From Flavobacterium rivuli WB 3.3-2 = DSM 21788 (GTDB taxonomy: Bacteria; Bacteroidota; Bacteroidia; Flavobacteriales; Flavobacteriaceae), in assembly GCF_000378485.1 (NCBI RefSeq), contig NZ_KB899970.1, positions 248,001-312,000 on the forward strand: a DNA stretch of 64,000 nucleotides, written 5' to 3'. Position 1 is the stretch's first letter. Every line of letters begins with the position of its first letter. Positions 4,976 through 45,392 of this stretch are shown here, in pieces. The notes below the pieces were generated by a model, which saw only the letters and a program-made list of their open reading frames with translations, did not search any database and was not told where the DNA came from. The translations under genes and the position numbers were made by a program.

Positions 4976-6247
4976 ATGAAAATAGCAATTATAGGTTTAG
5001 GTTATGTAGGTTTGCCGCTGGCGGTATTAATGTCTAAAAAATATCCAACGATAGGTTTTGATATTAAGGAAGGCCGCATTGCCGAGCTTAACCAGGGAGA
5101 AGACGTAACCCGGGAGATAGAAAGCGATGTTTTAAAGCAGGCACTGGCAAATTACAACACTACCGATAACGGATTGCTTTGCACCGATAATCCTGATGAA
5201 CTTGCCGATTGTAATTATTATATAGTTACCGTACCCACACCTGTAGATAAAAATAACAGGCCTAACCTTAAAGCACTGTACCGCGCAAGCGAAGTAGTAG
5301 GTAAGGTACTTAAAAAAGGCGATATTGTTATATACGAATCTACCGTTTATCCCGGTGTTACCGAAGATGAATGTGTGCCGGTATTGGAAAAAGTAAGCGG
5401 ACTAACTTTTAACGTCGATTTTTTTGCAGGCTATTCTCCAGAGAGGATAAACCCCGGAGATAAAGAGCATACAGTAGAGAAAATAGTTAAAGTAACGGCA
5501 GGCTCTACACCGGAGGCAGCTACAATGGTAGACGACCTTTATAAATCGGTTATTACAGCCGGTACCCATAAGGCGCCGTCTATTAAAGTGGCCGAAGCGG
5601 CAAAGGTTATAGAAAATTCGCAACGCGATATTAATATTGCTTTTGTAAATGAGCTTTCAAAAATATTTAACCTTTTAGATATAGATACACAGGCGGTTTT
5701 AGAAGCTGCAGGTACAAAATGGAATTTTCTTCCGTTTAAACCGGGGCTTGTGGGTGGCCACTGCATAGGGGTAGACCCATATTACCTGGCACAAAAAGCG
5801 CAGGAGGCAGGCTATCATCCAGAGATTATCCTTGCCGGCAGGAGGCTTAACGACAGCATGGGCGACTATGTTGCGTCTCAGGTGGTTAAGCTCATGATAA
5901 AGAGATGTGTAATTGTAAATGGCGCTAAACTGCTTATGTTAGGGGTTACATTTAAGGAGAACTGTACCGATGTGCGTAACACAAAAATTGTAGACGTCAT
6001 AAAGGCACTAAATGATTATGGCATTGCTGTAACGGTATACGACCCGTGGGCTAATCCTGCTGAAGTAAAGCATGAGTATGGCCTCGAAACAACGGATAAG
6101 CTGCCGAAAGAAACTTATGACGCTATTGTTCTGGGCGTAGCCCATGCTGCATTTTTAGATATGGATTTGTCATTATTGCAAAAGCCGGATAGTGTTATTT
6201 ACGATGTTAAGGGCGTCTTAGGGAAAAAAGCACACGCGCAGTTATAA
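4976..6247 (+). CDS. wbpO: nucleotide-sugar dehydrogenase, WbpO/TviB type
   Basis: A 423-residue member of the UDP-glucose/GDP-mannose dehydrogenase family. The N-terminal NAD-binding turn [10 protein letters not shown] is at residues 7-16. The catalytic cysteine is in [12 protein letters not shown] near residue 263, and the C-terminal UDP-binding domain contains [13 protein letters not shown]. These features match the group oxidising UDP-GlcNAc or UDP-GalNAc to the uronic acid by two NAD-dependent steps. It is co-transcribed with the 4-epimerase and clearly differs from the second dehydrogenase at 6398, so it is not a duplicate. Confidence 0.87.
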
Positions 6248-6258
6248 AAACAGCATGA

Positions 6259-6274
6259 ATTATAACGTTATAAT
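6259..6274. promoter_or_regulatory. 16-bp perfect palindrome upstream of ugd
   Basis: attataacgttataat reads the same on both strands. It lies just after the dehydrogenase stop and about 55 bases before the ugd promoter. It could be an operator or a weak transcript-end hairpin, or chance in AT-rich DNA. Confidence 0.25.
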
Positions 6275-6315
6275 GTTAAAAACATGAAAATTATTCTGTA
6301 ACGCTGCTGTGTTTA

Positions 6316-6348
6316 TTGATTATTTTTTGGAAAAAAAATGTATTTTTG
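6316..6348 (+). promoter_or_regulatory. promoter of ugd
   Basis: TTG at 6316-6318, 22 bases, then TATTTTTG at 6341-6348 (TAnnTTTG). The predicted leader is about 40 bases. This separates ugd and the following genes from the first two genes. Confidence 0.45.
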
Positions 6349-6397
6349 CACATCATAAAATTTTATTAAATTTTTTTATATATCAACCAATAATAAC

Positions 6398-7795
6398 ATG
6401 GGAAATAAAATTACGAATATCTGTTGTATAGGTGCAGGATATGTGGGAGGCCCCACGATGGCAGTAATTGCTGCAAAGTGTCCACACATAAAAGTGACCA
6501 TTGTTGATTTAAATGTTGCTCGTATAGCGGCATGGAATGATGAAAATTTAGACAACCTTCCGGTTTATGAGCCGGGCCTTGCAGAAATTGTTTCTCAGGC
6601 AAGGGGGCGCAACCTTTTCTTTACTACAGAGGTAGAAAAAGCTATAGATGAGGCCCAGATGATATTTATATCTGTAAATACACCAACAAAAACTTACGGT
6701 TTAGGTAAAGGTAAAGCAGCCGACCTTAAATATATAGAGCTTTGTGCAAGGCAAATCGCTGCAGTTTCTAAAAATGATAAAATTGTAGTTGAAAAATCTA
6801 CACTTCCTGTACGTACTGCAGAGGCTGTAAGGAGTATTCTTGATAACACAGGTAACGGTGTTAAATTCCAGATACTTTCTAACCCTGAATTCCTTGCAGA
6901 AGGTACAGCGGTAGAAGATCTTCTTAGCCCTGACAGGGTACTTATAGGTGGTGATACCGACGAAGAAGGACAGGCTGCTATTAAAGCACTTGCCGATGTA
7001 TATGCAGAGTGGATACCAAGAGAGCGCATACTTACTACAAACGTATGGTCATCTGAGCTTTCTAAGCTTACTGCAAATGCATTCCTTGCACAAAGGGTTT
7101 CGTCTATCAATGCAATGTCTGAACTTTGCGAGAAAACAGGCGCCGATGTTAATGAGGTGGCACGTGCCATAGGTATGGATAGCCGTATAGGCCCTAAATT
7201 CCTTAAAGCATCTGTAGGTTTTGGTGGTTCATGTTTCCAAAAGGATATCCTTAACCTTGTTTACATTGCTAAGTCTTATGGGCTTAACGAAGTGGCAGAT
7301 TATTGGGAACAGGTTGTTATTATGAACGATCACCAAAAAGTACGTTTTGCAGCTAAGATCGTTAAAACATTGTATAATACAGTTTCCGGTAAAAAAATCG
7401 CTTTCTTAGGTTGGGCGTTTAAAAAAGACACTAACGATACAAGAGAGTCTGCAGCTATACAGGTGGCAGATGAGCTATTGTACGAGCAGGCTAACATAGC
7501 AGTATTTGACCCTAAAGTTGAGGAAGATAAAATACAAGCCGACCTTAATTATTTAGACACAAGGACTAAAGAAGAGAATGCAAAATTAGCTACAGCTTTT
7601 CAGGATCCTTATGAGGCTTGTAAAGATGCTCATGCTATTGCTGTACTTACAGAGTGGGATGAGTTTAAAGAATATGACTGGCAACGTATTTATGACAATA
7701 TGAAAAAACCTGCTTTTGTGTTTGACGGCAGGGCTATATTAGATGGTAAAAAACTTACAGATATAGGTTTTGTTTTCCATGTAATAGGAAAATAA
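6398..7795 (+). CDS. ugd: UDP-glucose 6-dehydrogenase
   Basis: A 465-residue enzyme, close in length and motifs to the eukaryote-like UGDH group. It has the NAD-binding turn [11 protein letters not shown] (residues 11-21), the substrate segment [12 protein letters not shown], and the catalytic cysteine in [11 protein letters not shown] near residue 279. [14 protein letters not shown] sits in the C-terminal domain. It oxidises UDP-glucose to UDP-glucuronate, which can be used directly or passed to the UDP-glucuronate decarboxylase at 31431 to make UDP-xylose. Its base composition is a little less AT-rich than the flippase and polymerase genes. It has its own promoter. Confidence 0.93.
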
Positions 7796-18802: not shown

Positions 18803-19375
18803 ATGAATAAAATAATACAAAAGGGTGCATTCGTATTTCGTTATCGCTATTTTAACAAGGTGGTAAAATATCAACGAAATTTTTTTTTAAAATTTCAGGG
18901 TATGCAAATAGGTAAAAAAACGTATGTGCCGAAGTGCTCTATAACATGGCCACATCAGGTTTCTCTAGGTGATGATTGCAGGCTGGAACATGACATTTAT
19001 TTTCATTACGATGGTATTTGGAAAGAGGGTCCATCTATAATTATTGGTAACAATGTATTTGTGGGGTTTGGTTGCGAATTCAATATTACTAAAAAGATTA
19101 CTATAGGCGATGACTGTTTGATAGCATCAGGGTCTAAATTTGTAGATCATAACCATGGCACATCGCTAACTGAATTAATTAGGATACAAAAGTCTCCCGA
19201 AAAAGAAATTGTAATAGGCAATAACGTATGGATTGGTGCAAATGTTGTTGTTTTAAAGGGTGTTACAATTTTTGATGGAGCCATAATAGCTGCAGGAGCA
19301 GTATTAAATAAAAATGTACCGGCAAATGAAATTTGGGGAGGTATACCTGCCAAAAAAATAGGAGATAGAAAGTAA
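18803..19375 (+). CDS. left-handed beta-helix acetyltransferase
   Basis: A 190-residue protein with hexapeptide repeats (IIIGNNVFVGFGC, ITIGDDCLIASGS, IVIGNNVWIGANVVV) that fold as a left-handed beta-helix. The likely catalytic histidine is in FVDHNHG near residue 115, as in maltose/galactoside O-acetyltransferases. It ends with the usual GGIPAKKIG. It is expected to O-acetylate a sugar of the glycan using acetyl-CoA in the cytosol. It sits 1 base before the next glycosyltransferase. Confidence 0.85.
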   Translation: MNKIIQKGAFVFRYRYFNKVVKYQRNFFLKFQGMQIGKKTYVPKCSITWPHQVSLGDDCRLEHDIYFHYDGIWKEGPSIIIGNNVFVGFGCEFNITKKITIGDDCLIASGSKFVDHNHGTSLTELIRIQKSPEKEIVIGNNVWIGANVVVLKGVTIFDGAIIAAGAVLNKNVPANEIWGGIPAKKIGDRK

Positions 19376-25566: not shown

Positions 25567-26235
25567 ATGCGTAAAATAATACAGTTATTTATTTGTATTA
25601 GCCCTATGTTTTTAAAAAGGAGGCTGCTTAAGCTTTTTTATGGGTATAATGTACATCCTACAGCAACAATAGGGCTGTCGTGGATATATCCTAAAAAACT
25701 TACTATGGCTGCGGGTAGCCGCATCGGGCATTTTAATGTAGCCTTGCACCTTGACGAAATAGTTTTAAACGAAAAAGCATCTATAGGCCGTAGTAACTGG
25801 ATAACCGGTTTTGCTACGGGTACTGCCTCTAAGCATTTTGCACATCAACCGGATAGGCAGTCACTTTTATATATAGGAGAACAAAGTTCAATAACAAAAA
25901 ATCATCATTTAGACTGCACAAGCCCAATCACGATAGGCAAATATGTAACTATTGCAGGATATCAGTCGCAATTTATTACACACTCTATAAACGTTTATGA
26001 CAACCGGCAGGATAGTAAGCCTATTACCATAGGCGATTATTGTTTTGTAGGAACAAATGTGGTAATTTTGGGCGGTACAAATTTGCCGGGATACTCTGTT
26101 TTAGGGGCTAAATCATTACTGAACAAGTCGTATACAGACGAATGGAAACTGTATGGCGGTAACCCGGCAAAACCTTTAACAGATATATCTAAGGAGGCTA
26201 AATATTTTAGCAGGCCAACAGGTTTTGTTAATTAA
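25567..26235 (+). CDS. left-handed beta-helix acyltransferase
   Basis: A 222-residue protein with hexapeptide repeats (VHPTATIGLSWI, ITIGKYVTIAGYQSQ, ITIGDYCFVGTNVVILG) and a histidine-containing segment (ITHSINVYD) near residue 140 that occupies the acetyl-transfer site in relatives. The N-terminus is hydrophobic and basic, suggesting membrane association. It is expected to O-acetylate a sugar or nucleotide sugar. It lies 6 bases after a GT4 gene and belongs to its unit. Confidence 0.8.
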   Translation: MRKIIQLFICISPMFLKRRLLKLFYGYNVHPTATIGLSWIYPKKLTMAAGSRIGHFNVALHLDEIVLNEKASIGRSNWITGFATGTASKHFAHQPDRQSLLYIGEQSSITKNHHLDCTSPITIGKYVTIAGYQSQFITHSINVYDNRQDSKPITIGDYCFVGTNVVILGGTNLPGYSVLGAKSLLNKSYTDEWKLYGGNPAKPLTDISKEAKYFSRPTGFVN

Positions 26236-27459: not shown

Positions 27460-28032
27460 ATGTTTGGTCACGATATAAATAATCCAGATGCTTATGTAAA
27501 GCCCGTTTTTTCTACAAAAGATAAGGTTAAGCGTTTAATATGGCAAATTACCTGGGCGGTTTTATGCAGGTATACCCCGGCGCCGCTGCATAAATGGAGA
27601 GTTTTTGTGCTAAGGATGTTTGGGGCAAAAATAGGTAAAAGTAATTTTATATACCCAAGTTGTACTATATGGGCTCCATGGCTGCTTGAAACCGAAGAAG
27701 TTGCTACTATAGGGCCGGGTGTAGAGGTTTATAACCCCGGAGGTGTATACTTAGGTCATCATTCTATATTATCTCAGGATGCTTATATTTGTGGCGCAAC
27801 TCACAATTATAACAGTATTGATTTTAATTATATTATGAAACCAATAGTTATAAAACCGTATGCCTGGATATGTGCAAAGGCCATTGTACTGCCCGGCGTA
27901 ACCTGTAATACAGGGAGTGTGCTTGCGGCAGCGGCTATAACATCAAAAGATTTAGATGAGTGGGGAGTTTATGCAGGAAACCCTTCAAAAAAAATAAGGG
28001 AAAGAATAAATTTTTTAAAAGACAGTAATTAG
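27460..28032 (+). CDS. wcaF: WcaF-like acetyltransferase
   Basis: A 190-residue hexapeptide-repeat protein resembling the putative colanic-acid acetyltransferase WcaF. It has RVFVLRMFGAKIGK, IYPSCTIWAPW, the histidine in CGATHNYNS near residue 112, PIVIKPYAWICAKAIVLPG and YAGNPSKKIRERI. It probably O-acetylates a fucose or other sugar of the repeat unit in the cytosol. It is followed 5 bases later by the GMC oxidoreductase. Confidence 0.86.
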   Translation: MFGHDINNPDAYVKPVFSTKDKVKRLIWQITWAVLCRYTPAPLHKWRVFVLRMFGAKIGKSNFIYPSCTIWAPWLLETEEVATIGPGVEVYNPGGVYLGHHSILSQDAYICGATHNYNSIDFNYIMKPIVIKPYAWICAKAIVLPGVTCNTGSVLAAAAITSKDLDEWGVYAGNPSKKIRERINFLKDSN

Positions 28033-33453: not shown

Positions 33454-33894
33454 ATGAGACGCAGCATTGGTAAGGGAGTTGCAAAAACAATAGCATTAAT
33501 GTATGTGTTTGCAGTTCTTTATTTAACTATGATGTCGGCAAATCGTTACACCGGGATATTTGATGAGCATAACATAAATTTAATTCCTTTCTCGAATAAA
33601 TGGATTTACTTTAGTAATTTCTTTACGCTTCAAACCAATGCAAAGTTGTTTGTAATCAAAGAAACGATTGGAAATTTTTTTTTACTTATGCCTTTTGCCT
33701 GGTCTTACTGTGTTTTTTTTGGTAAAATTAAACAACCTACAATGGTTGTTTTAATTGTTTTTTTAGCGCTTACTATAGAGAACCTGCAATACTGGTTGCA
33801 TATAGGTACTTTTGATATTGATGATATAATTTTGAATATTGCAGGCGGACTTTTTGGAGCTTTTTTGTTTTACAGGATGCATAAAAGAAATTAA
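33454..33894 (+). CDS. VanZ-family membrane protein
   Basis: A 146-residue protein with four hydrophobic helices and the VanZ-type features INLIPF (after helix 1), ETIGNFFLLMPF, and ENLQYWLHIGTFDIDDIILNI split across the third and fourth helices. The biochemical role of VanZ-like proteins outside glycopeptide resistance is not known; they are often seen in flavobacterial polysaccharide loci. It is coupled to its neighbours with 5-base gaps. Confidence 0.85.
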   Translation: MRRSIGKGVAKTIALMYVFAVLYLTMMSANRYTGIFDEHNINLIPFSNKWIYFSNFFTLQTNAKLFVIKETIGNFFLLMPFAWSYCVFFGKIKQPTMVVLIVFLALTIENLQYWLHIGTFDIDDIILNIAGGLFGAFLFYRMHKRN

Positions 33895-35129: not shown

Positions 35130-35346
35130 TGATGTTTTAATCATGACAAATGTTAAAAAAAATAAATTAAAAGTAGGGGTAGTTTAAATTTAATTGATGA
35201 CCTTTACATCATTATTGTAAATGATTTATTTATGCAACAACAATACATGCATTGCTAATATCTAAAAATAACGAATAAATAAGTAAGGATTCTCCTTGCA
35301 AAGATTGACTGAATTATATTTATCATTTTTTTGTTATTATTATAAA

Positions 35347-36732
35347 ATGCAACAATACCTTAATAAAATTTCTTTAGTCAGGCTAATAGCAGATTTATCT
35401 GTTGTAGCACTCACTTTTATTGTATGTGTATATTGTGTACAGCCTACAACTTTTGCTGATCATTTCAGGTCAAAATTTTTCCTGTTATTTATATTGTTGC
35501 TGGTTTGGTTCTTTAGTGGTACCTCTAATAAATTATATAACGAGCACAGAATAAGACCGGGATTTTCGCTGGAAATATATAAAACAGTAAAGAGCATTGT
35601 TATACTTGCTCTTGCTATTGTGGTATTTTCATTCTTTTCGCAGCATTTTTTGCCTACAAACTTTGTATTTATATACTCTGGTGCACTTATAGTATGTTTT
35701 GGTACAGAGAAATATATTATACACAGGTTGGTTCTTTTTTTGCGAAGGCAGGGTTACAACCTAAGGCATGTAATTATATTAGGGCACGGTAATACGGCTA
35801 ATCAGTTTCATGAGCTTATAACTAATAATCCACACCTTGGCTACGATGTTATTGGGTATTTTGATGATGAAGAGAAAGATGCAGTTATAGGGCCATACCT
35901 TGGCAAAATAAATGATTTAGGTCCATTTTTAAAGACCCGGCCCATAAATGAGGTTATCGTGGCAACTCCGGGTATAACCATTGGCGAGATTGAAGAAATA
36001 ACATATGTTGTAGATAAAGCAGGTGTAAGGGTAAGGATAATTCCTGATTTCCACTTTCAGTTTTACAACCGTTATGAGTTTAAGCAATTTGGTAATATAC
36101 CTACAGTTTCATTACGCAAAGAACCTCTTGAAGAAACCCATAATAAATTTACAAAGCGAACATTTGATATCGTTTTTAGCGCCTTAGTATTAGTGTGTAT
36201 ATGCTCATGGCTATATCCTTTAATAGCGGTTCTTATCAAAATGAATTCTAAAGGGCCGGTGCTGTTTAAACAAAAAAGGCTTGGCAGGGACCGTAAAGAA
36301 TTTTGGTGTTATAAGTTTAGGAGTATGTATGTAAATGCCGTTTCAGATAAGCAGGCGGCATCTAAGGGCGACTCCCGTGTTACACCTATAGGGCGTGTAT
36401 TAAGAAAGACAAGCCTTGATGAGTTTCCTCAGTTTTGGAATGTGCTTAAAGGCGATATGTCTATAGTTGGGCCAAGGCCACACATGAGTATACAAAATGA
36501 ACAATATCAGGAAATTATAAACAATTACCTTGTAAGGCAGCTTATTAAGCCGGGTATTACGGGTTGGGCTCAGGTAAATGGTTACAGGGGCGAAATTGAA
36601 AATGAGTTTGATATTAAAAACCGTGTAACTTATGATATATGGTATCTTGAAAACTGGAGTTTTTTCCTTGATATAAAAATTGTATACTTAACAGTGTGGA
36701 ATATATTTAAGGGCGAGGACAAGGCTTATTAA
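35347..36732 (+). CDS. wcaJ: undecaprenyl-phosphate glucose/hexose phosphotransferase, WcaJ-like
   Basis: A 461-residue polytopic phosphoglycosyl transferase. About four N-terminal helices are followed by a CoA_binding_3-like Rossmann domain (ILGHGNTANQFHEL). The C-terminal catalytic domain contains KRTFDIVFSALVL, YKFRSM, the DE dyad in LDEFPQFWNVLKGDMS, and VGPRPHMS. It starts glycan assembly by moving hexose-1-phosphate onto undecaprenyl phosphate. The frame extends back to TTG at 35296, but the ATG at 35347 (MQQYLNKISL) fits homologues better. A second, small initiating transferase lies at 39519. Confidence 0.9.
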   Translation: MQQYLNKISLVRLIADLSVVALTFIVCVYCVQPTTFADHFRSKFFLLFILLLVWFFSGTSNKLYNEHRIRPGFSLEIYKTVKSIVILALAIVVFSFFSQHFLPTNFVFIYSGALIVCFGTEKYIIHRLVLFLRRQGYNLRHVIILGHGNTANQFHELITNNPHLGYDVIGYFDDEEKDAVIGPYLGKINDLGPFLKTRPINEVIVATPGITIGEIEEITYVVDKAGVRVRIIPDFHFQFYNRYEFKQFGNIPTVSLRKEPLEETHNKFTKRTFDIVFSALVLVCICSWLYPLIAVLIKMNSKGPVLFKQKRLGRDRKEFWCYKFRSMYVNAVSDKQAASKGDSRVTPIGRVLRKTSLDEFPQFWNVLKGDMSIVGPRPHMSIQNEQYQEIINNYLVRQLIKPGITGWAQVNGYRGEIENEFDIKNRVTYDIWYLENWSFFLDIKIVYLTVWNIFKGEDKAY

Positions 36733-36779
36733 TATAGTCATTGCCTGGATTCACTGCATTTTTTGCTAAATTAGCTGTT

Positions 36780-37916
36780 ATGGAAAACCCAATGATATGG
36801 CTTTCGTCACCACACCCAAGTGGTAATGAGCAAAAATATATCGATGAAGCTTTTAATTTAAGGCGTTTATTCGCTTTTGGAGAAAACATAAATGGTTTTG
36901 AAAATGACCTTGAAAATTATCTTGGCCAGGGTGTTTATGTAGCAGCTTTCAATTCGGGCACTTCGGCAATACACATGGCGCTTATACTTTTAGGTGTAAC
37001 TAATGGCGATGAAGTTATATGCCAGTCGCTAACATTTGCCGCATCTGCAAACCCCATACTATATCTTGGAGCAAAACCGGTATTTGTAGGCAGCGAACCA
37101 CAAACCTGGAACATGTGCCCCGATGCTCTTGAGGCGGCAATAAAAGACAGGATAGCGAAGGGTAAAAAACCAAAAGCTATAATTGCAGTGCACCTTTATG
37201 GTATGCCTTATAAGGCAGACGAGATAAATACAATTGCAAAAATATACGGTCTTCCGGTAATAGAAGATAGTGCCGAAGCTTTGGGTAGTACCTATAAAGG
37301 CATTAAATGTGGTACACTGGGAGATATTTCAATATTGTCTTTTAACGGCAATAAGATTATAACCACAGCTTCGGGCGGAGGATTGGTAAGCAAAGACCCC
37401 AAGGTTAAAGAGCGGGCCATATTTTTAGCATCGCAGGCAAAAGACCCGGCACCACATTACCAACATTCGCAGGTGGGTTACAACTATCGCATAAGCAATA
37501 TAAATGCGGGTATAGGCCGCGGGCAAATAGAGGTTTTGCAGGATTATATTAACTTAAGGCGAAACAACCATATTTTTTATAGTGAACTGTTTAGTGGTGA
37601 GCGTTATATTAAGCTACTAACAGAACCTGATACTGATTTTTACAGTAATTATTGGCTTACCACTTTAACAATGAATGACAGCAATAAAACCAGCGAGGCT
37701 TTAAGGTTATTTTTGGCTAATATGAATATAGAAACGCGCCCTGTATGGAAGCCCCTGCATTTACAGCCGGTTTTTGAAAGTTGCGATTATTATGGCGACA
37801 ATTGCGCAGAGGATGTTTTTAATACCGGCCTTTGTATGCCATCCGGATCTAACCTTACAGATGAGGAGAAGCAGAGAATTACCCATGCCTTTACAGCGTG
37901 GAAAAATACCGTTTAA
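36780..37916 (+). CDS. DegT/DnrJ/EryC1-family sugar aminotransferase
   Basis: A 378-residue PLP enzyme. The opening MIWLSSPHPSGNEQKYI is typical of PglE/EpsN-like sugar aminotransferases. It has FNSGTSAIHMAL, VIEDSAEALGS (PLP-ring aspartate) and the PLP lysine in FNGNKIITTASGG near residue 205. It would aminate a 4-keto-6-deoxy nucleotide sugar, made either by the dehydratase at 40999 (UDP-GlcNAc route) or by rfbB. The start ATG 36780 is chosen over the TTG at 36741; ATG 36792 is also possible. It leads the module with the deacetylase and formyltransferase. Confidence 0.9.
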   Translation: MENPMIWLSSPHPSGNEQKYIDEAFNLRRLFAFGENINGFENDLENYLGQGVYVAAFNSGTSAIHMALILLGVTNGDEVICQSLTFAASANPILYLGAKPVFVGSEPQTWNMCPDALEAAIKDRIAKGKKPKAIIAVHLYGMPYKADEINTIAKIYGLPVIEDSAEALGSTYKGIKCGTLGDISILSFNGNKIITTASGGGLVSKDPKVKERAIFLASQAKDPAPHYQHSQVGYNYRISNINAGIGRGQIEVLQDYINLRRNNHIFYSELFSGERYIKLLTEPDTDFYSNYWLTTLTMNDSNKTSEALRLFLANMNIETRPVWKPLHLQPVFESCDYYGDNCAEDVFNTGLCMPSGSNLTDEEKQRITHAFTAWKNTV

Positions 37917-37987
37917 GGAAAACCTCTTTTTAGCTATAAAATAATTGCTTACTTTCATCACATAACAGCATTTTACGGGTATATACA

Positions 37988-38677
37988 ATGGTAAAAAAAA
38001 CATACTTAACGGTAACGGCACATCCAGATGATGAGATTTTAGGTTTTGGAGCCAGTGCTTTTACGTTGTCTCAGCAAGGGCATACTGTTTATAATTGTAT
38101 ACTATCCGGCAATGCAGAAGCAAGATTACACAGGCCGGAAGATAAAGTGCTGTATGAAAATACCTGTACGGCACAACAAATAGTAGGGGCACAGCCACCG
38201 GTATTGGGTAGTTTTCCTAACATAAAATTTAATACAATACCTCATATAGAGTTGGTACAGTTTATAGAGGCGGTAATTAAACAGGTACAGCCTGACTATA
38301 TTTTTACGCATCACCCGTCAGACCTTAATGATGATCACCTGCATACATCAAGGGCATGCCAGGCGGCGGCAAGGCTTTTTCAGCGTCAATCAAATATAAA
38401 ACCATTACAGGGATTGTATTTTATGGAGATACCTTCTTCTACAGATTGGGCTTTTCCGTCTAATAATGCCCCTTTTCAGCCAAATACTTTTATAGAAGTG
38501 GGCGAGGCAGGTGTTGCAAAAAAAATAAAGGCACTATCTGCTTACAAGGGTGTAATGAGAGAATATCCGCACCCCAGGTCGGTTCAGGTTTTACAGGGGC
38601 TTGCAGCTCTTAGGGGTGGGCAGTCAGGATTGTTATATGCCGAAGCATTTCAGGCAGCATTTCAAATATTAAAGTAA
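37988..38677 (+). CDS. PIG-L/LmbE-family N-deacetylase
   Basis: A 229-residue zinc hydrolase of the LmbE fold. It has the metal and catalytic motif TAHPDDEILGFGAS (residues 8-21) and the second metal site HHPSDLNDDHLHTSRA near residue 117. All expected His and Asp residues are present. Such enzymes remove acetyl groups from N-acetylamino sugars. Its stop codon overlaps the ATG of the formyltransferase gene by one base, which implies they act together: deacetylation followed by another N-acylation is the simplest reading. Confidence 0.87.
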   Translation: MVKKTYLTVTAHPDDEILGFGASAFTLSQQGHTVYNCILSGNAEARLHRPEDKVLYENTCTAQQIVGAQPPVLGSFPNIKFNTIPHIELVQFIEAVIKQVQPDYIFTHHPSDLNDDHLHTSRACQAAARLFQRQSNIKPLQGLYFMEIPSSTDWAFPSNNAPFQPNTFIEVGEAGVAKKIKALSAYKGVMREYPHPRSVQVLQGLAALRGGQSGLLYAEAFQAAFQILK

Positions 38678-39513
38678 TGAATTTTGCATTTGTAACCTGT
38701 GTTCAGATAGGCTTAAGCTGTATGGAAGAGCTATATGCGGTTAATGGTACCCTTAAGCTTATAATTACCCTGCACGACGAGAAAGCTAAAAATAAATCAG
38801 GGCGCATATATGTAGACGATTTTGCAGAGTTGCACAGTATTCCTGTAATTAAGGTTAATCATATTAACGATGTTGCTGCTGTACAGGCAATAAAAGAGTA
38901 TGCTATAGATTGGCTTTTTATAATAGGTTGGTCGCAAATAGCATCTTTAGAGGTTATAAATGCACCAAAATATGGAGCTATAGGGGCGCATCCTACGCTG
39001 TTGCCGCAAGGCAGGGGAAGGGCTGCCATTCCGTGGGCTATTATTAAGGGGCTTGATAAAACCGGGGTTACTTTTTTTAAGCTTGATGAAAATGTTGATA
39101 CAGGTTTAATACTTGCACAGCAGGAAATACCTTTATCTGCTACAGAAACGGCTACCGTTTTGTATGAAAAAGTAAATGATGCCCATAAAGAATTAATAAG
39201 TAAGCTTTATTTTGATTTAAAGTCAGGTAACGCAAAAGGTATTGTTCAGGATGAAAGCTTGGCTACCTATTGGGAAGGCCGTACTCCTAAAGATGGCGAG
39301 ATAACATTAGATATGGATGTATATCAAGCAGACAGGTTAGTGCGGGCTACTACTAAGCCGTATCCTGGGGCTTATGTTGTAGATAAAGCAAAAAAAATAA
39401 TTATTTGGGAGGGGCTTGCAAGTATTCGTAAACAAATGTTGCCTAATACCTTGGAATTAATACTTACCGGCGGATATTATTATGCTACCAACTTTGAAAT
39501 TTTTGATAATTAA
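38677..39513 (+). CDS. formyltransferase-family protein (sugar N-formyltransferase candidate)
   Basis: A 278-residue protein with the formyltransferase core AIGAHPTLLPQGRGRAAIPW near residues 104-123 and the loop aspartate in DENVDTGLILAQQ. A C-terminal domain (YWEGRTPKDGEI) like that of ArnA/Fmt-type enzymes follows. The catalytic His and Asp are present, but the usual Asn two residues before the His is Gly (GAH instead of NxH). It may formylate an amino sugar from 10-formyl-tetrahydrofolate; the changed residue leaves this open. It is translationally coupled to the deacetylase. Confidence 0.8.
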   Translation: MNFAFVTCVQIGLSCMEELYAVNGTLKLIITLHDEKAKNKSGRIYVDDFAELHSIPVIKVNHINDVAAVQAIKEYAIDWLFIIGWSQIASLEVINAPKYGAIGAHPTLLPQGRGRAAIPWAIIKGLDKTGVTFFKLDENVDTGLILAQQEIPLSATETATVLYEKVNDAHKELISKLYFDLKSGNAKGIVQDESLATYWEGRTPKDGEITLDMDVYQADRLVRATTKPYPGAYVVDKAKKIIIWEGLASIRKQMLPNTLELILTGGYYYATNFEIFDN

Positions 39514-39518
39514 GCCAC

Positions 39519-40082
39519 ATGGCAAAAAGATTGTTTGATATAGTGGTATCGTTGTTTTCCATGTTACTATTTGGGTGGGTAATAGCCTTGTTCTATATAT
39601 GGGCAAGCATAGATACAGCCCAAAACGGAATGTTTATTCAAATGCGTGTAGGGCAATATGGTAAGCTGTTTAAAATTTATAAATTAAAAACCATGACGCG
39701 CGACACCGAAGGGAAAAGTAAAATATCTGCCTTAGGGCGGTTTTTAAGAAAATATAAGGTAGACGAACTTCCACAGCTATATAATATTTTGAAAGGCGAT
39801 ATGAGCTTTGTGGGCCCCAGGCCGGATATACCGGGATATTATGATAAATTAACGGGAGAGGAGCGGCAATTGCTTAACCTGAAACCGGGGCTTACCGGGC
39901 CGGCAAACATAAAATACTGGAACGAAGAGCAATTATTACTCCTGCAGCCAAACCCGGATAAATATAATGATGATGTGCTGTTTCCGGATAAGGTAAAAAT
40001 CAATATGCAGTATATGGCAGAACGTACATTTTGGTTTGATATCAAAATTATAATATATACGCTGTTGAGAAAAAATCTTTAA
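39519..40082 (+). CDS. monotopic phosphoglycosyl transferase, PglC-like
   Basis: A 187-residue initiating sugar transferase with one N-terminal re-entrant hydrophobic helix (RLFDIVVSLFSMLLFGWV), IYKLKTMTRDT, the catalytic DE dyad in YKVDELPQLYNILKGDMS and VGPRPDIPG. The length equals that of PglC-type enzymes, which transfer phospho-diNAcBac or related 4-amino sugars to undecaprenyl phosphate. It ends the aminotransferase-deacetylase-formyltransferase module, so its donor is probably the sugar they make. Confidence 0.9.
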   Translation: MAKRLFDIVVSLFSMLLFGWVIALFYIWASIDTAQNGMFIQMRVGQYGKLFKIYKLKTMTRDTEGKSKISALGRFLRKYKVDELPQLYNILKGDMSFVGPRPDIPGYYDKLTGEERQLLNLKPGLTGPANIKYWNEEQLLLLQPNPDKYNDDVLFPDKVKINMQYMAERTFWFDIKIIIYTLLRKNL

Positions 40083-40210
40083 ATGTTAAATTAATATTAT
40101 AACAGATTTGTATTGTAAAAAAGAAACAAAGTAATGTTTCGTTATATTGATATTTACTTTTTTTGAATATGTAAATTATAATTTTGCGGATAATTCACGA
40201 TTTTTAATTT

Positions 40211-40218
40211 TACCTTTG
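40211..40218 (+). promoter_or_regulatory. -7 element upstream of cmk
   Basis: TACCTTTG matches TAnnTTTG and lies 48 bases before the cmk start. A second match, TAATTTTG, is at 40179-40186. Neither has a TTG at the ideal distance. A promoter here would separate cmk and the following genes from the module upstream. Confidence 0.35.
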
Positions 40219-40265
40219 ATGCTTATAGTCATGCTTAAATTATTACTGTTACAATATTAAAAGAT

Positions 40266-40952
40266 TTGGATAAAAAGATAACCATCGCGATAGACGGTTT
40301 TTCGTCGACAGGTAAAAGTACGCTAGCTAAGCAACTTGCAAAAAAACTTAACTACATTTATGTAGATACCGGTGCAATGTATCGTGCGGTAACATTGTAT
40401 GCATTACAAAATGGCTTTGTTACAAAAGGGCATGTAAATGAACATGCACTCATAGCGAATTTGCCTAATGTTACCCTTAAGTTCTTTTTTAATACGAACC
40501 TTGCTCATAGCGAAGTTTATTTAAATGGGGTTAATGTTGAAGGACACATACGAACAATGGAAATTTCTAATCTTGTAAGTAAAATAGCCACTATTCATGA
40601 CGTGAGGCTAAAACTTGTAGAACAACAGCGTTTTATGGGTAAAGATAAGGGGGTTGTTATGGATGGCCGGGACATAGGCACGGTTGTATTTCCTGATGCA
40701 GAGCTTAAACTTTTCATGACATCTGGTGCTAATGTTAGGGCGCAACGCCGCTATGACGAACTGCTTGCGCAGGGACATGATGTAACATATAACGAGGTGC
40801 TTAAAAATATCGAAGAGCGTGATGATATAGATACACACAGGGAAGACTCTCCCTTAAGAAAGGCAGATGATGCAATAGAGATTGACAATTCTGACCTTAC
40901 CATCGAAGAGCAATTTGACAAAATTTTGCAATTGGTAAAAAAAGTGCTTTAG
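40266..40952 (+). CDS. cmk: cytidylate kinase
   Basis: A 228-residue NMP kinase with the P-loop DGFSSTGKSTLAKQLA (residues 10-25), YVDTGAMYRAVTLYAL, MDGRDIGTVVFPDA and IEERDDIDTHREDSPL. It phosphorylates CMP and dCMP. It is a single-copy housekeeping gene in most bacteria, yet it lies deep inside the polysaccharide locus. It starts with TTG after a 183-base gap holding two -7-like elements. Product and length are ordinary. Confidence 0.94.
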   Translation: MDKKITIAIDGFSSTGKSTLAKQLAKKLNYIYVDTGAMYRAVTLYALQNGFVTKGHVNEHALIANLPNVTLKFFFNTNLAHSEVYLNGVNVEGHIRTMEISNLVSKIATIHDVRLKLVEQQRFMGKDKGVVMDGRDIGTVVFPDAELKLFMTSGANVRAQRRYDELLAQGHDVTYNEVLKNIEERDDIDTHREDSPLRKADDAIEIDNSDLTIEEQFDKILQLVKKVL

Positions 40953-40998
40953 CTGCAGTATTATTTGGTTTTTTAGAGCAGTTAAATTTAATAAAAAG

Positions 40999-42123
40999 AT
41001 GAAGCAGGTTAATTATCAATTAGAAGACTTATTAGACAGGAAACCAATATTGCTTGATAGTCAATCTATATCAGCGCAGTTAAAAGATAAAGTAGTTCTT
41101 ATTACAGGGGCTGCAGGGTCTATTGGCAGCGAAATAGTAAGACAGGTAATTGATTTTTCTCCTAAATGTGTTATAATGCTCGATCAGGCAGAAACACCAT
41201 TATATCTGCTTGAATTAGAGGTAGGTGTAATGATGCCTAATGCGAGGTTTTATTCTGAAATTGCAGATGTAAAAGATAAAAATGCTGTAAATGAGGTTTT
41301 TAAAAAGTACAGGCCTAATGTTGTGTACCATGCGGCGGCTTACAAGCATGTGCAAATGATGGAAAAAAATCCGTCTCAGGCAATTATGGTTAATGTATTA
41401 GGTACAAAAAATGTAGCCGATTGTGCTAATCTTTATAATGTAGATACTTTTGTGCTGATATCTACAGATAAGGCTGTTAACCCGGGAAGTATTATGGGAG
41501 CCAGCAAGCTTGTCGCCGAAAAATATGTACAGGCACTACATGAAAAACTTGTACACCAGGAAAAAGAGAGTGCAACAAAGTATCTTATTACGCGTTTTGG
41601 TAATGTTTTAGGTTCTAACGGATCTGTTGTGCCTGTTTTTGCAAAACAAATACAGGACGGAGGCCCTGTTACAGTTACACATCCTGATATTACACGCTTT
41701 TTTATGACTATTAAAGAGGCATGCCAGTTAGTGCTTGAAGCAGGTGCAATGGGCAAAGGTGGCGAAATTTACATTTTTGATATGGGTAAGCAGGTAAAAA
41801 TTATAGATTTAGCCTTAAAGATGATTCGTATGGCGGGTCTTGAGCCTGATAAGGATATTAAAATTAAATATGTAGGATTACGTCCCGGAGAGAAGTTGTA
41901 TGAAGAGCTGGTTACAGATACATCTAAGATGTTGCCTACGCACAACGATAATATAATGATTAGCAGAGAAGAACCGCAAGATTATGATGTTATTAATGTT
42001 AGTATTAATAAAATGATAACCCTTGCGCAACAATTTAATGTTTTTGAAGCTGTGGCCGAAATGAAGAAAATTGTTCCGGAATTTATAAGCCTTAATTCTG
42101 AGTTTAAAGGGTTAGAATTATAA
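40999..42123 (+). CDS. UDP-N-acetylglucosamine 4,6-dehydratase catalytic domain, WbpM/PglF type (no membrane domain)
   Basis: A 374-residue SDR equal to the C-terminal half of the CapD/WbpM/PglF proteins. The NAD-binding motif is TGAAGSIGSEIVRQV near residue 36. The catalytic region STDKAVNPGSIMGASK has Met in place of Tyr (the Ser-Met-Lys triad of WbpM), and FGNVLGSNGSVVP follows. Full-length relatives of about 600 residues carry four N-terminal helices and a second Rossmann domain. Here those are absent, with no remnant in the 46 upstream bases. It should make UDP-2-acetamido-4-keto-2,4,6-trideoxyglucose, the substrate expected by a PglE-like aminotransferase. Confidence 0.86.
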   Translation: MKQVNYQLEDLLDRKPILLDSQSISAQLKDKVVLITGAAGSIGSEIVRQVIDFSPKCVIMLDQAETPLYLLELEVGVMMPNARFYSEIADVKDKNAVNEVFKKYRPNVVYHAAAYKHVQMMEKNPSQAIMVNVLGTKNVADCANLYNVDTFVLISTDKAVNPGSIMGASKLVAEKYVQALHEKLVHQEKESATKYLITRFGNVLGSNGSVVPVFAKQIQDGGPVTVTHPDITRFFMTIKEACQLVLEAGAMGKGGEIYIFDMGKQVKIIDLALKMIRMAGLEPDKDIKIKYVGLRPGEKLYEELVTDTSKMLPTHNDNIMISREEPQDYDVINVSINKMITLAQQFNVFEAVAEMKKIVPEFISLNSEFKGLEL

Positions 42124-42251: not shown

Positions 42252-43013
42252 ATGATTAAAAAAATTACCGTATTGTTTTTAATTGCAATAGCGCTTACCT
42301 CTTGTGTTTCCAGAAAAAAAATAGTTTATTTTCAAAATGTTTCTTCATTATCTGATAATAACTACGAACCAAAAGTGCAGCCGGATGACGAGGTGCTAAT
42401 AATAGTAAACGTAACTTCTCCAAATGAGGCTCTTGCAGCTCCTTTTAATCAATCTTCAGTAGTGAACTTAACTCCAGGAGCAGGTGCGGGACAATCAGGT
42501 GAAGGAAGGACATATCGTGTTGATAAAGATGGTTTTATACAGCTTCCACTTGTTGGGTCTATAAAGTTAGGCGGGCTATCAAGACAACAGGCTTTAGAAG
42601 AATTAAATAAAGAAGTTAAAAAGTACATTTCTAATCCTATTATTACATTAAGGGTTACGAATTTTAAATTTACAGTTTTAGGCGAAGTAAAATTGCCGGG
42701 TACCTATACCTATCCGGGTGAGAGGCTAACGCTTCCTGAAGCACTGGGCCTGGCTGGAGATCTCACTGTTTACGGAAAGAGAAACAATGTTTTGGTAATA
42801 AGGGATTTGTCAGGTAAAAAAACATATAATTATATAGATTTAACTAAAGTAGACTTTATGCAGTCTGAGTTCTATTATTTATCTCAAAATGATTTAATTT
42901 ATATAGAACCTAACAAAACAGCCGTAAATTCTTCTGCAACAGGCCGTGACCTTACAATAGCTATTTCGTCACTATCAGTAATAATTGCCATAATTTCCAT
43001 TATAACAAGATAA
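42252..43013 (+). CDS. wza: polysaccharide export lipoprotein, Wza-like
   Basis: A 253-residue outer-membrane export protein. A lipoprotein signal peptide ends in LTSC (cysteine at residue 18). The Poly_export domain (VQPDDEVLIIVNVTSPNEA) and SLBB-like domains (YRVDKDGFIQLPLVGSIKLG; FTVLGEVKLPGTYTYPG) follow. A C-terminal hydrophobic segment (LTIAISSLSVIIAIISI) would cross the outer membrane. Shorter than E. coli Wza, as is usual in Bacteroidota. It forms the exit channel with the Wzc kinase 3 bases downstream. Confidence 0.92.
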   Translation: MIKKITVLFLIAIALTSCVSRKKIVYFQNVSSLSDNNYEPKVQPDDEVLIIVNVTSPNEALAAPFNQSSVVNLTPGAGAGQSGEGRTYRVDKDGFIQLPLVGSIKLGGLSRQQALEELNKEVKKYISNPIITLRVTNFKFTVLGEVKLPGTYTYPGERLTLPEALGLAGDLTVYGKRNNVLVIRDLSGKKTYNYIDLTKVDFMQSEFYYLSQNDLIYIEPNKTAVNSSATGRDLTIAISSLSVIIAIISIITR

Positions 43014-43016
43014 AAC

Positions 43017-45392
43017 ATGAATTTAAAAAATACAGAACCTGAATTTGCTGAACCTAAAAAAGTTAATTATAAGGCTATTATTGGGCAATACTTATATTAT
43101 TGGAAATGGTTTTTGGTAAGCGGTTCATTTTTTTTATTAATTGCATTTGTTTATTTAAGATATGTGTCTCCAATGTACAACATATCGGCAACAATATTAA
43201 TCAAAGATGATAAAAAGGGTGGAATTGCTTCAGAGCTTACTGCCTTTGGAGAACTGGGAATTGTAAAGGGAGCAAAGAGCAACATTAATAATGAAATGCA
43301 GCTACTCCGCACTCGTTCTTTAGCAAAAAAAACAGTTGAACAGTTAAAATTAAATATTAGTTATTTTCAGGAAGGTAGGGTAAATCCTGTCGAGATTTAT
43401 AATGATGTGCCTATCAGGGCCAGTTTCTATAATACTGAAGAGGGTTTTTACAACCAGTCGATGTCGTTTGTTATTAGCTTGCTGTCTCCTAACCAATTTG
43501 AGCTTTCAGATATGAATGAAAAGCTTCTTGGGGTATATAAATTTGGACAGCCGGTAAAGGTTAGTAAAGGTACAATGGTTATAACCAATAATTTTTTTGG
43601 TAACAACAACTTTAAAAAGAACATATATATAGTTAATCTAAGGGATATTGAAAGTGTCGCTTCGGCCTACAAAGGTAAATTACTAATTGCACCCGTAGGT
43701 GAAGAAACGAGTATACTTACTGTATCTGTTATAGACCCTATTAAACAAAGGGGGGTAGATTATATTACTGCGGTTATCAAAAATTATAATCAGGATGCTA
43801 TTGATGATAAAAATGAGTTAGGTAATAAAACTGAAAAATTCATATCGGAAAGGTTAGATTCAATCAAAAAAGATTTGAATGGTGTAGAGTACGATTTAGA
43901 GAAGTTTAAGAGAACTAATAAAATTACAGATTTAGCAATAAATTCTGAAGCCTATGTTGGTATTTCCAATACTTATGCCGGTAATGCTGCTGATAACCAA
44001 ACAAAAATAGGCGTTGTTAACTTGATGCTGAATTATCTTAAAACTGCATCTTCAGATGATGTCATTCCTGTTAATATTGTACCTGAAGGAGATGCAACAT
44101 CTCTTGTTGAGGAATATAATAAATTAATTTTCACAAAATCTAAATATAAGGAAGATGGTACAGCGATACATCCGATAAGGATCAGTCTCGATCAGCAGAT
44201 AGAGGGTATGCGACAAAGTATTATTGCAAGTCTTAATAATATGAAGAGATCTCTCGAGCTTTCTCAAAAAGACATACAGCGCCAGGAAAATATATTTCAA
44301 GGTAAGATAGGTATGGTTCCTAAGCAGGAACGGGATGTTAGGGGAATTAACAGACAGCAGAACATTAAAGAGGCGCTCTATCTTTATCTGTTACAGAAAA
44401 AGGAAGAAAACTCTATCAATTTAGCTGTTACGGCGCCAAATTCTAAAATTATAGATGAGGCTTATGCTAACCCGGGACCGATATCGCCTAAGAAAAATGT
44501 TATTTATTTAGGGGCATTTATCTTTGGTTTGTTATTGCCCTTTGGCGTAATATATACTATAAACTTGCTGGATAGTAAAATACATGGTGCTGATGATCTG
44601 GCTGATTTATCATTGCCTTATTTGGGGGATGTTCCCCGTTCTGAAACTAATAGTGAATTAGTAAATACTCATAGCCGATCTGCAACTGCTGAGGCTTTAA
44701 GGATAATAAGGACTAATTTAGAATTTATGCTTTCGGGTGTGCCGGAAGGTATTGCGAAAACTATTTTTGTTACCTCTACAGTGCCTAAAGAAGGTAAGAC
44801 ATTTATATCTGCAAACTTAGCTGCAACGGTTGCTCTGGGGGGTAAAAGAGTACTACTTATGGCTATGGATATTAGAAATCCTAAATTAGACGAATATATT
44901 AATATTCCATCTAAAGGGCTTACTAATTATTTGTCTTCTCCAAATGCAAGTATTGAAGATTACATAATTAAGCATGAAGGATTTGAAAACTTTTATATTT
45001 TGCCTCCGGGATTAATACCGCCAAATCCTGCCGAGCTATTGATGAACAAGAAAGTTGACGATTTATTTACTAAATTAAAAAAGGAGTATGATTATATTGT
45101 TGTAGATACTGCTCCTGTTAGTTTAGTTACCGATACAATTATAATAGCTAAGAACGCTGATTGCTTTGTATATGTAACGCGTGATAATCATTTAGAAAAG
45201 AAAATGTTATCAATACCTGAAACACTTTACAGAGAAGGCAAATTACCTAACATGGCAATTTTGTTAAACGATACCGGTACTGATAAAGGTTATGGTTACG
45301 GATATGGCTATGGTTACGGATATGGCTATGGCTATGGACCTGACATAAAAAAACCAAAAACATGGAAAGAAAAACTTTTTAACAAAAAGTAA
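43017..45392 (+). CDS. wzc: polysaccharide co-polymerase and tyrosine autokinase, Wzc-like
   Basis: A 791-residue inner-membrane protein. The N-terminal Wzz domain lies between a first helix (residues 28-45) and a second (around 495-515), with long coiled-coil parts in the periplasm. The cytosolic BY-kinase domain has Walker A STVPKEGKTF near residue 585, Walker A' LLMAMDIRNPK and Walker B YIVVDTAPVS. The C-terminus carries about eight consecutive Tyr-Gly pairs, the likely autophosphorylation cluster, then a basic tail. It controls chain length and export with Wza, and is opposed by the phosphatase gene that converges on it. Confidence 0.94.
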   Translation: MNLKNTEPEFAEPKKVNYKAIIGQYLYYWKWFLVSGSFFLLIAFVYLRYVSPMYNISATILIKDDKKGGIASELTAFGELGIVKGAKSNINNEMQLLRTRSLAKKTVEQLKLNISYFQEGRVNPVEIYNDVPIRASFYNTEEGFYNQSMSFVISLLSPNQFELSDMNEKLLGVYKFGQPVKVSKGTMVITNNFFGNNNFKKNIYIVNLRDIESVASAYKGKLLIAPVGEETSILTVSVIDPIKQRGVDYITAVIKNYNQDAIDDKNELGNKTEKFISERLDSIKKDLNGVEYDLEKFKRTNKITDLAINSEAYVGISNTYAGNAADNQTKIGVVNLMLNYLKTASSDDVIPVNIVPEGDATSLVEEYNKLIFTKSKYKEDGTAIHPIRISLDQQIEGMRQSIIASLNNMKRSLELSQKDIQRQENIFQGKIGMVPKQERDVRGINRQQNIKEALYLYLLQKKEENSINLAVTAPNSKIIDEAYANPGPISPKKNVIYLGAFIFGLLLPFGVIYTINLLDSKIHGADDLADLSLPYLGDVPRSETNSELVNTHSRSATAEALRIIRTNLEFMLSGVPEGIAKTIFVTSTVPKEGKTFISANLAATVALGGKRVLLMAMDIRNPKLDEYINIPSKGLTNYLSSPNASIEDYIIKHEGFENFYILPPGLIPPNPAELLMNKKVDDLFTKLKKEYDYIVVDTAPVSLVTDTIIIAKNADCFVYVTRDNHLEKKMLSIPETLYREGKLPNMAILLNDTGTDKGYGYGYGYGYGYGYGYGPDIKKPKTWKEKLFNKK
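45288..45338 (+). repeat. Tyr-Gly coding tandem repeat at the wzc 3' end
   Basis: Two perfect copies of the 18-base unit ggttacggatatggctat occupy 45294-45311 and 45312-45329, flanked by partial units. They encode alternating Gly-Tyr. Copy number could vary by slippage without shifting the frame. Confidence 0.85.

Follow-up and report, generated by a model that had tools for sequence, protein, structure and literature searches.

Adjacent genes for a PIG-L family deacetylase and a formyltransferase (FT) relative in Flavobacterium rivuli WB 3.3-2 (DSM 21788) probably form an acyl-exchange pair, in which the N2-acetyl group of a GlcNAc-derived sugar would be swapped for formyl. This reading comes from sequence comparisons centered on a 64,000-nucleotide stretch of contig NZ_KB899970.1 (positions 248,001 to 312,000 of the forward strand), called the window, to which coordinates refer unless a locus is named. 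The deacetylase gene (37988..38677, + strand) matches PF02585 (7.7e-16), and its product has both metal/catalytic motifs of PIG-L/LmbE-type zinc deacetylases, HPDDE and HPxDxxxDH, as AHPDDE and THHPSDLNDDH. The FT gene (38677..39513, + strand; PF00551 and PF02911) overlaps it by one base, 38677 being common to the deacetylase stop codon and the FT start. The initial annotation had described these intact motifs and this overlap correctly, and had grouped the two genes with an aminotransferase (AT), a small phosphoglycosyl transferase (PGT), and a dehydratase; domain and PDB matches establish that all five are present.

The two genes travel together far beyond this genome. A scan of named genomes gave 158 FT relatives, the best 80 of which were kept (L016 is the same contig as L014). 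Of these loci 79 were tabulated; L080, where an overlapping open reading frame (ORF) displaced the FT, was left out of the table and judged from raw hits. Taking "near" as within 1.5 kb of the FT unless 5 kb is stated, a PIG-L gene was near the FT in 78 of the 79 tabulated loci, or 79 of 80 counting L080, where the PIG-L gene stops about 100 bases ahead of the FT. The sole exception, L051, has its FT ORF starting at base 72 of the contig, that is, at a contig end. The 1210 other ORFs counted in the loci included 79 PIG-L genes, 78 of them no more than two genes from an FT, and the adjacency is more than chance. A search within the same family found FT matches at E <= 1e-30 in 9 of 199 genomes: besides the window's own, two had 66% identity and the remaining six 30-35%. 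In all eight loci outside the window PIG-L adjoins the FT or lies one gene off. The two deacetylase motifs are intact in 81 and 80, respectively, of 82 PIG-L proteins, the window's included. Pairwise distances of FT and PIG-L proteins were correlated (r = 0.85 over 81 loci), compared with 0.60-0.67 for the other five gene pairs and at most 0.23 for shuffles, although similar rates of change could contribute to the FT/PIG-L value. Hosts of the pair carry eleven phylum names: Bacteroidota, Bacillota, Pseudomonadota, Cyanobacteriota, Myxococcota, Actinomycetota, Gemmatimonadota, Lentisphaerota, Chlorobiota, Fusobacteriota, and Mycoplasmatota. A small phosphotransferase was near the FT in 66 of the 79 loci, some of the misses being contig ends or merged ORFs. 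The five-gene set whose co-conservation the initial annotation proposed to check is thus not a conserved unit and was rejected as such: the part that recurs is PIG-L plus FT, in most cases joined by a small PGT, and a PglE-type enzyme is a minority partner. In one locus (L064) two PIG-L/FT pairs stand consecutively on a single contig, whose end truncates the second.

The FT belongs by sequence and fold to the sugar N-formyltransferase family. It matches Formyl_trans_N at 85.4 bits (Pfam cut-off 26.1), its nearest PDB relative by sequence is ArnA, and its AlphaFold model (pLDDT 94) is closest to the ArnA FT domain (2bln, TM 0.88). Formyltransferases carry an Asn-x-His ... Asp triad with a catalytic Asn. 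In the window protein the Asn site is occupied by Gly103 (codon 38983..38985), whereas the catalytic His105 (38989..38991) and Asp141 (39097..39099) are retained. Gly was found at this site in all 83 FTs from the 80 loci, L013, L014, and the window, and we refer to the two types as GxH and NxH enzymes. Across 28 aligned FTs, His105, Asp141, Pro106, Pro110, and Arg-Gly-Arg 113-115 are invariant, although the most distant FTs, those of L100 and L109, do not keep every one of these residues. The other two Formyl_trans_N proteins of the window genome look PurN- and Fmt-like by eye, and both are NxH. A quick tree set the Fmt- and ArnA-type sequences apart from the GxH ones with support 90, yet it placed three NxH sequences (L130, L131, and the second FT of L095) among the GxH rows on long branches, and thus a single origin of the GxH type is not established.

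The link between PIG-L and the GxH site was also seen in a wider set, from which six duplicate loci were removed and in which the catalytic column was read from the alignment, giving 25 Gly and 24 Asn enzymes (among the 25, L005 and L006 duplicate the L013 and L014 genes). PIG-L was near 20 of the 25 GxH FTs and near none of the 24 NxH FTs. Note that about 17 of the 24 NxH proteins are Fmt-like as judged by length and motif, and that only a handful (L127, L130, L131, L169, L185, and the second FT from L095) act or might act on sugars, so this control is more informative about GxH enzymes than about FTs of sugar pathways. A control search for VioF-type FTs yielded only 2 of 296 genomes. In the phylum search with the FT query Fmt matches prevailed, and loci were built from the top 30 places only.

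If the FT acts on an amine, the neighboring genes suggest where that amine comes from. Among 56 well-flanked loci, those having at least 5 kb on each side of the FT, an AT lies within 5 kb of the FT in only 6 and anywhere in the locus in 8, and thus the amine is probably supplied by PIG-L. An extended short-chain dehydrogenase/reductase (SDR; PF01370) was within 5 kb in 36 of the 56 and a PglF-type dehydratase in 35. Judging from WbpM, WbpV, and WbpK, these two enzymes look like a UDP-QuiNAc or UDP-FucNAc route; the observed match of the SDR is to PF01370, and WbpV/WbpK-like is our presumptive label for it. The window itself does have an AT (36780..37916, + strand; PF01041, 2.6e-90). The best solved relatives of this PglE-type enzyme are 1o61 (3.9e-78) and 4ztc (2.3e-77), which we take to be C. 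jejuni PglE. Its longest ORF (36741-37916) begins with TTG, and the ATG at 36780 agrees with the starts of relatives.

Nonulosonic acid clusters point to the position. C5 of legionaminic acid corresponds to C2 of the parent hexosamine. In L168, from the window's genus, genes for LegC, a NeuD-family acetyltransferase, NeuB, and NeuC score above the NCBIfam cut-offs and are accompanied by FT and PIG-L genes; the dehydratase, nucleotidyltransferase, and cytidylyltransferase genes match related models below cut-off. L172 and L174 have the same kinds of genes by similarity, again with FT and PIG-L, and the L174 NeuD protein is above the NCBIfam cut-off. As these legionaminic-acid clusters have their own C4 acetyltransferase, C2 is left for FT and PIG-L. 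The same argument applies to two loci with PglD-type proteins, both having the PglD N-terminal domain: in L170 (PGT-FT-PIG-L-PglD-PglE-PglF) and L021 (SDR-PIG-L-PGT-FT-PGT-PglD-AT-PglF) PglD is available to acetylate C4, and C2 remains for the pair. In L173 we found NeuB, NeuC, FT, PIG-L, and nucleotidyltransferase genes, with no LegC-type match within 19 kb. The initial annotation had offered as an alternative that a C2 acetyl might be exchanged for formyl, and the comparative evidence favors that alternative: the pair occurs across phyla, mostly with no AT nearby, and it adjoins legionaminic-acid gene sets that come with a C4 acetyltransferase of their own. In the window no NeuB or NeuA was seen by eye among the ORFs of 1-50205, and no NeuC-type match was found in the whole window.

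Two nonulosonic acid clusters have two FTs each, one GxH and one NxH (L169:10583-11473 and L095:9069-9791). In L169 the NxH FT is in the slot following LegC (the LegH slot) and the GxH FT again adjoins PIG-L; this locus might make legionaminic acid with two formyl groups. In L095, from the haloarchaeon Halorussus caseinilyticus, neuC, PIG-L, neuB, the GxH FT, and the NxH FT genes are adjacent. 5-N-formyl-legionaminic acid occurs in another haloarchaeon, Halorubrum sp. PV6, and HrrPV6_1050 was put forward as its possible FT (PMC6137143). The product reported for the Halorubrum FT gene is 953 bp long (PMC6137143), which is about the size expected for the 314-residue GxH FT of Halorussus, a comparison by length alone.

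The absence of PglD noted in the initial annotation holds for the whole genome. Neither TIGR03570 nor PF17836, the PglD N-terminal domain, gave a protein above cut-off: the top scores were 67 bits against 160.8 for TIGR03570, confined to its second half, and 21.7 against 23.4 for PF17836, from ORFs of 325 and 481 residues. TIGR03570 alone is not decisive, because two PglD-like proteins of other loci are also below its cut-off; PF17836 does detect PglD in operons of four genomes (G279, G477, G560, and G203). Two further genomes have close FTs. G059 has no PF17836 protein, and G138 has two, encoded elsewhere in the genome, a finding that speaks against PglD having simply been lost in each of the window, L013, and L014. 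Gene order in the same genus bears on the matter. L180, L181, and L182 read PGT-PglD-PGT2-PglE-PglF followed by two export-type genes (PGT2 denotes the clade of the window's small transferase); L183 has PGT, PglD, AT, and PGT2 together in a different order, and in L184 PglD and AT are missing but PGT2 and PglF are present. L014, and L013 on the other strand, read PIG-L-PGT1-FT-PGT2-AT-PglF. The window AT and PGT2 are no more distant from their counterparts in L180-L182 (identities of 58-63% for AT and 52-57% for PGT2) than from those in L013 and L014, which have the close FT (57-59% and 46-49%). Comparison of the window, L013, and L014 with their relatives therefore indicates that the PIG-L/FT pair occupies the place of PglD, and the proposal that a deacetylase and an FT replace PglD is upheld by the three PglD-containing genomes. 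From the absence of PglD it follows that the C4 amine of the window sugar either stays free, receives formyl from the same FT, or is acylated by another enzyme. Three hexapeptide acetyltransferases of the window (18803-19375, 25567-26235, and 27460-28032) were considered as stand-ins for PglD and rated lower: their best matches are WcaF-/WbbJ-type O-acetyltransferase models, all below cut-off, and they match NeuD/PglD over its second half at most. These proteins might conceivably act as C4 N-acyltransferases.

We infer the reaction, its substrate, position, and timing (on the nucleotide sugar or the lipid-linked sugar) from the genes, motifs, pairing, distribution, and gene order observed. In the proposed pathway PglF would make a 4-keto-6-deoxy sugar and the PglE-like enzyme would aminate C4 to give a 4-amino-4,6-dideoxy sugar. 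PIG-L would take the N-acetyl group off C2 of the GlcNAc-derived sugar, and the FT would add formyl from 10-formyl-tetrahydrofolate to the freed C2 amine, perhaps also to C4. A WcaJ-type transferase or PGT2 would then pass the sugar-phosphate to the lipid carrier, and the glycan would leave by the adjacent Wza/Wzc-like system. Deacetylation of UDP-GlcNAc itself would compete with cell wall synthesis, making a later intermediate the more likely substrate. As the pair is mostly found beside a small initiating-type PGT, often with a PglF/WbpM dehydratase, the sugar is probably the first or an early one in a surface polysaccharide. Given that the pair stands where same-genus relatives have PglD, the window product may be a 2-formamido-4-amino-2,4,6-trideoxyhexose, or the 2,4-diformamido form if the same FT formylates C4. 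Speculatively, and with considerable doubt as to the full combination, the pair would be a widespread exchange module for a priming sugar that uses an FT lacking the catalytic Asn and here also does the job of PglD, giving a 2,4-diformamido-2,4,6-trideoxyhexose, a bacillosamine with two formyl groups, that starts, or stands early in, the glycan.

Several observations weigh against exchange at C2. Neither an AT nor an SDR reductase is within 5 kb in 16 of the 56 well-flanked loci, and the sugar there is unassigned; an AT could be encoded elsewhere in those genomes. Five of the 25 GxH FTs have no PIG-L nearby (L096, L098, L111, L113, and L099, whose record stops at the FT). The replacement of the catalytic Asn in every member of the set means that formyl transfer is not to be taken for granted. 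The available text of the Halorubrum paper names no PIG-L or deacetylase, nor HrrPV6_1052 (PMC6137143). No polysaccharide structure was found for any of these organisms. Finally, the window has an AT and is without PglD, which keeps formylation of C4 alone in play. As to the L096 exception, the S. meliloti plasmid has a PIG-L gene about 14 kb from the FT. Next to the GxH FTs of L096 and L098 (Sinorhizobium and Palleronia plasmids) are genes annotated as ATP-binding or ATP-grasp, a hint that this type of enzyme may have a different partner as well.

Formylation at C4 alone would have the FT act on the PglE-made amine in place of PglD, with PIG-L freeing C2 (to give a 2-amino-4-formamido sugar) or serving another sugar. 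Known sugar FTs use amines made by ATs, and the FT sits in the slot of PglD (PGT1-FT-PGT2-PglE-PglF in L014 versus PGT-PglD-PGT2-PglE-PglF in L180-L182) in genomes that, for the window by both models and for G059 by PF17836, lack a PglD-type protein above cut-off. However, the same FT subfamily is found in many loci with no AT nearby, a PglD- or NeuD-type enzyme occurs together with FT and PIG-L in L021, L170, L168, L172, and L174, the close FT of G138 coexists with two PglD_N proteins elsewhere in that genome, and the second FT that occupies the LegH slot of L169 is NxH. On balance we regard formylation of C4 alone as unlikely. Less probable still is that the FT has given up formyl transfer for another reaction or for a structural or regulatory role as partner of PIG-L, in which case the final sugar would have a free C2 amine. 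The presence of Gly in all 83 FTs favors this reading, but the fold is complete and modeled with high confidence, the residues listed above are invariant in the 28 aligned sequences (if not all in L100 and L109), and the Halorubrum FT product, by length alone, is similar in size to the Halorussus GxH FT. An ArnA/ArnC/ArnD-like scheme, in which the FT would protect an amine while the sugar is passed to the lipid carrier, after which PIG-L would deformylate it, fits the ArnA fold of the FT and the usual proximity of sugar-phosphate transferases. This scheme was considered and lowered to very improbable, for most well-flanked loci have no nearby AT to provide an amine needing protection, and the window deacetylase matched PF02585 only and lacks an ArnD-type match; ArnD-type deformylases belong to a family other than PIG-L.

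Exchange of acetyl for formyl at N2 has partial precedents. In the Halorubrum sp. PV6 pathway an N-formyl group likewise resides on the former N2-acetyl nitrogen of a GlcNAc-derived sugar and the FT gene is among the legionaminic acid (Leg) genes; in contrast, the available text gives a possible FT with no deacetylase named, the sugar is a terminal nonulosonic acid, and the part of the window read has no Leg genes. The window shares PglF-like and PglE-like enzymes and a PglC-fold transferase with the C. jejuni PglF-PglE-PglD-PglC pathway to UDP-N,N'-diacetylbacillosamine, but it has PIG-L and a GxH FT rather than PglD, its PglF lacks the membrane half, and its PglC-fold protein is in a separate clade. 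The ArnA FT domain and the sugar N-formyltransferases WbkC and QdtF have the same fold and catalytic His and Asp, whereas FTs of the window type have Gly for Asn, a PIG-L partner, and mostly no nearby AT. PIG-L enzymes N-deacetylate glucosamine before a new group is attached in glycopeptide antibiotics and in the BshB/MshB systems. In those cases a long acyl chain or Cys is attached, whereas here the group would be formyl and the partner is a relative of folate enzymes.

We found no description of the PIG-L/FT pair in the open-licence literature, including under N-formyl bacillosamine, PGT plus formyltransferase, N-formyl quinovosamine (mostly Brucella), and 2-formamido; 2-formamido-galacturonic acid of P. 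aeruginosa O4 was met only as the title of a reference in PMC7555982. The component families and the deacetylate-then-acylate logic are known; what appears to be new is the exchange to formyl, how widely it occurs, and the GxH mark. Were the exchange to be as proposed, many surface polysaccharides predicted to begin with N-acetyl-quinovosamine, N-acetyl-fucosamine, or diacetylbacillosamine would carry N-formyl instead, and the pair would yield an unusual building block in a sugar chain. It would also fill a gap by explaining how the original N2 comes to be N-formylated, for example in 5-N-formyl-legionaminic acid; a PIG-L gene adjoining a GxH FT gene would be a simple sequence marker for N-formyl at that position, and the FT would be a test case for formyl transfer without the catalytic Asn.

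The 187-residue protein that the initial annotation called a PglC-like initiating transferase (39519..40082, + strand; PF02397, 4.8e-47) does have the PglC fold, its closest PDB entries being the PglC-type 8e37 and 8g1n, but its role as glycan starter is uncertain. It falls in the distinct PGT2 clade, set apart within the PglC fold family and with its own conserved C-terminal insert, and members of this clade are often encoded beside another PGT. Moreover, a full-length WcaJ-type polyprenyl-phosphate sugar phosphotransferase gene (35296..36732, + strand; TIGR03023, 460 bits, cut-off 411; PF02397 and PF13727) is directly upstream of the set, stopping 8 bases 5' of the longest AT ORF, and hence there are two candidate initiating enzymes. 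In a phylum search, FT or PIG-L was beside PGT2 in none of the 29 other best PGT2 matches, and an AT-like hit, some low-scoring, was beside it in 18 of the 29 (flanks of about 1.5 kb in both cases). Members of the clade (L138-L166) often adjoin a 4-aminotransferase and sometimes a second small transferase. That PGT2 is without the helix-breaking Pro was rejected as a sign of lost function, the window WcaJ and one WcaJ-type protein each in L014 and L023 also being without it.

The remaining member of the set, the dehydratase (40999..42123, + strand; PF02719, 1.5e-114), is of the PglF/WbpM type and has cmk directly 5', as annotated initially, with the correction that only the soluble catalytic half is present. 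Its top PDB match is 5bju ("WlaL protein", 7e-87), and it has 374 residues versus 627-658 in eight relatives (L013, L014, L021, L170, L180-L182, and L184), all of which have the N-terminal membrane half that it lacks. The adjoining export genes encode a Wza-like polysaccharide export protein (42252-43013, + strand; PF02563 and SLBB) and a Wzc-like chain-length, tyrosine-kinase-like protein (43017-45392, + strand; GNVR PF13807 and AAA_31); similar-looking genes, by eye, come after PglF in L180-L182. Just ahead of its C-terminus the Wzc-like protein has a Gly-Tyr alternation of eight GY units (45288-45338), probably the tyrosine cluster that becomes phosphorylated. Elsewhere among the polysaccharide genes are a small VanZ-like membrane protein (33454-33894), whose NCBIfam matches are weak and far below cut-off, and, in the same cluster, two different UDP-sugar-dehydrogenase-like genes side by side (4976-7795, by eye).

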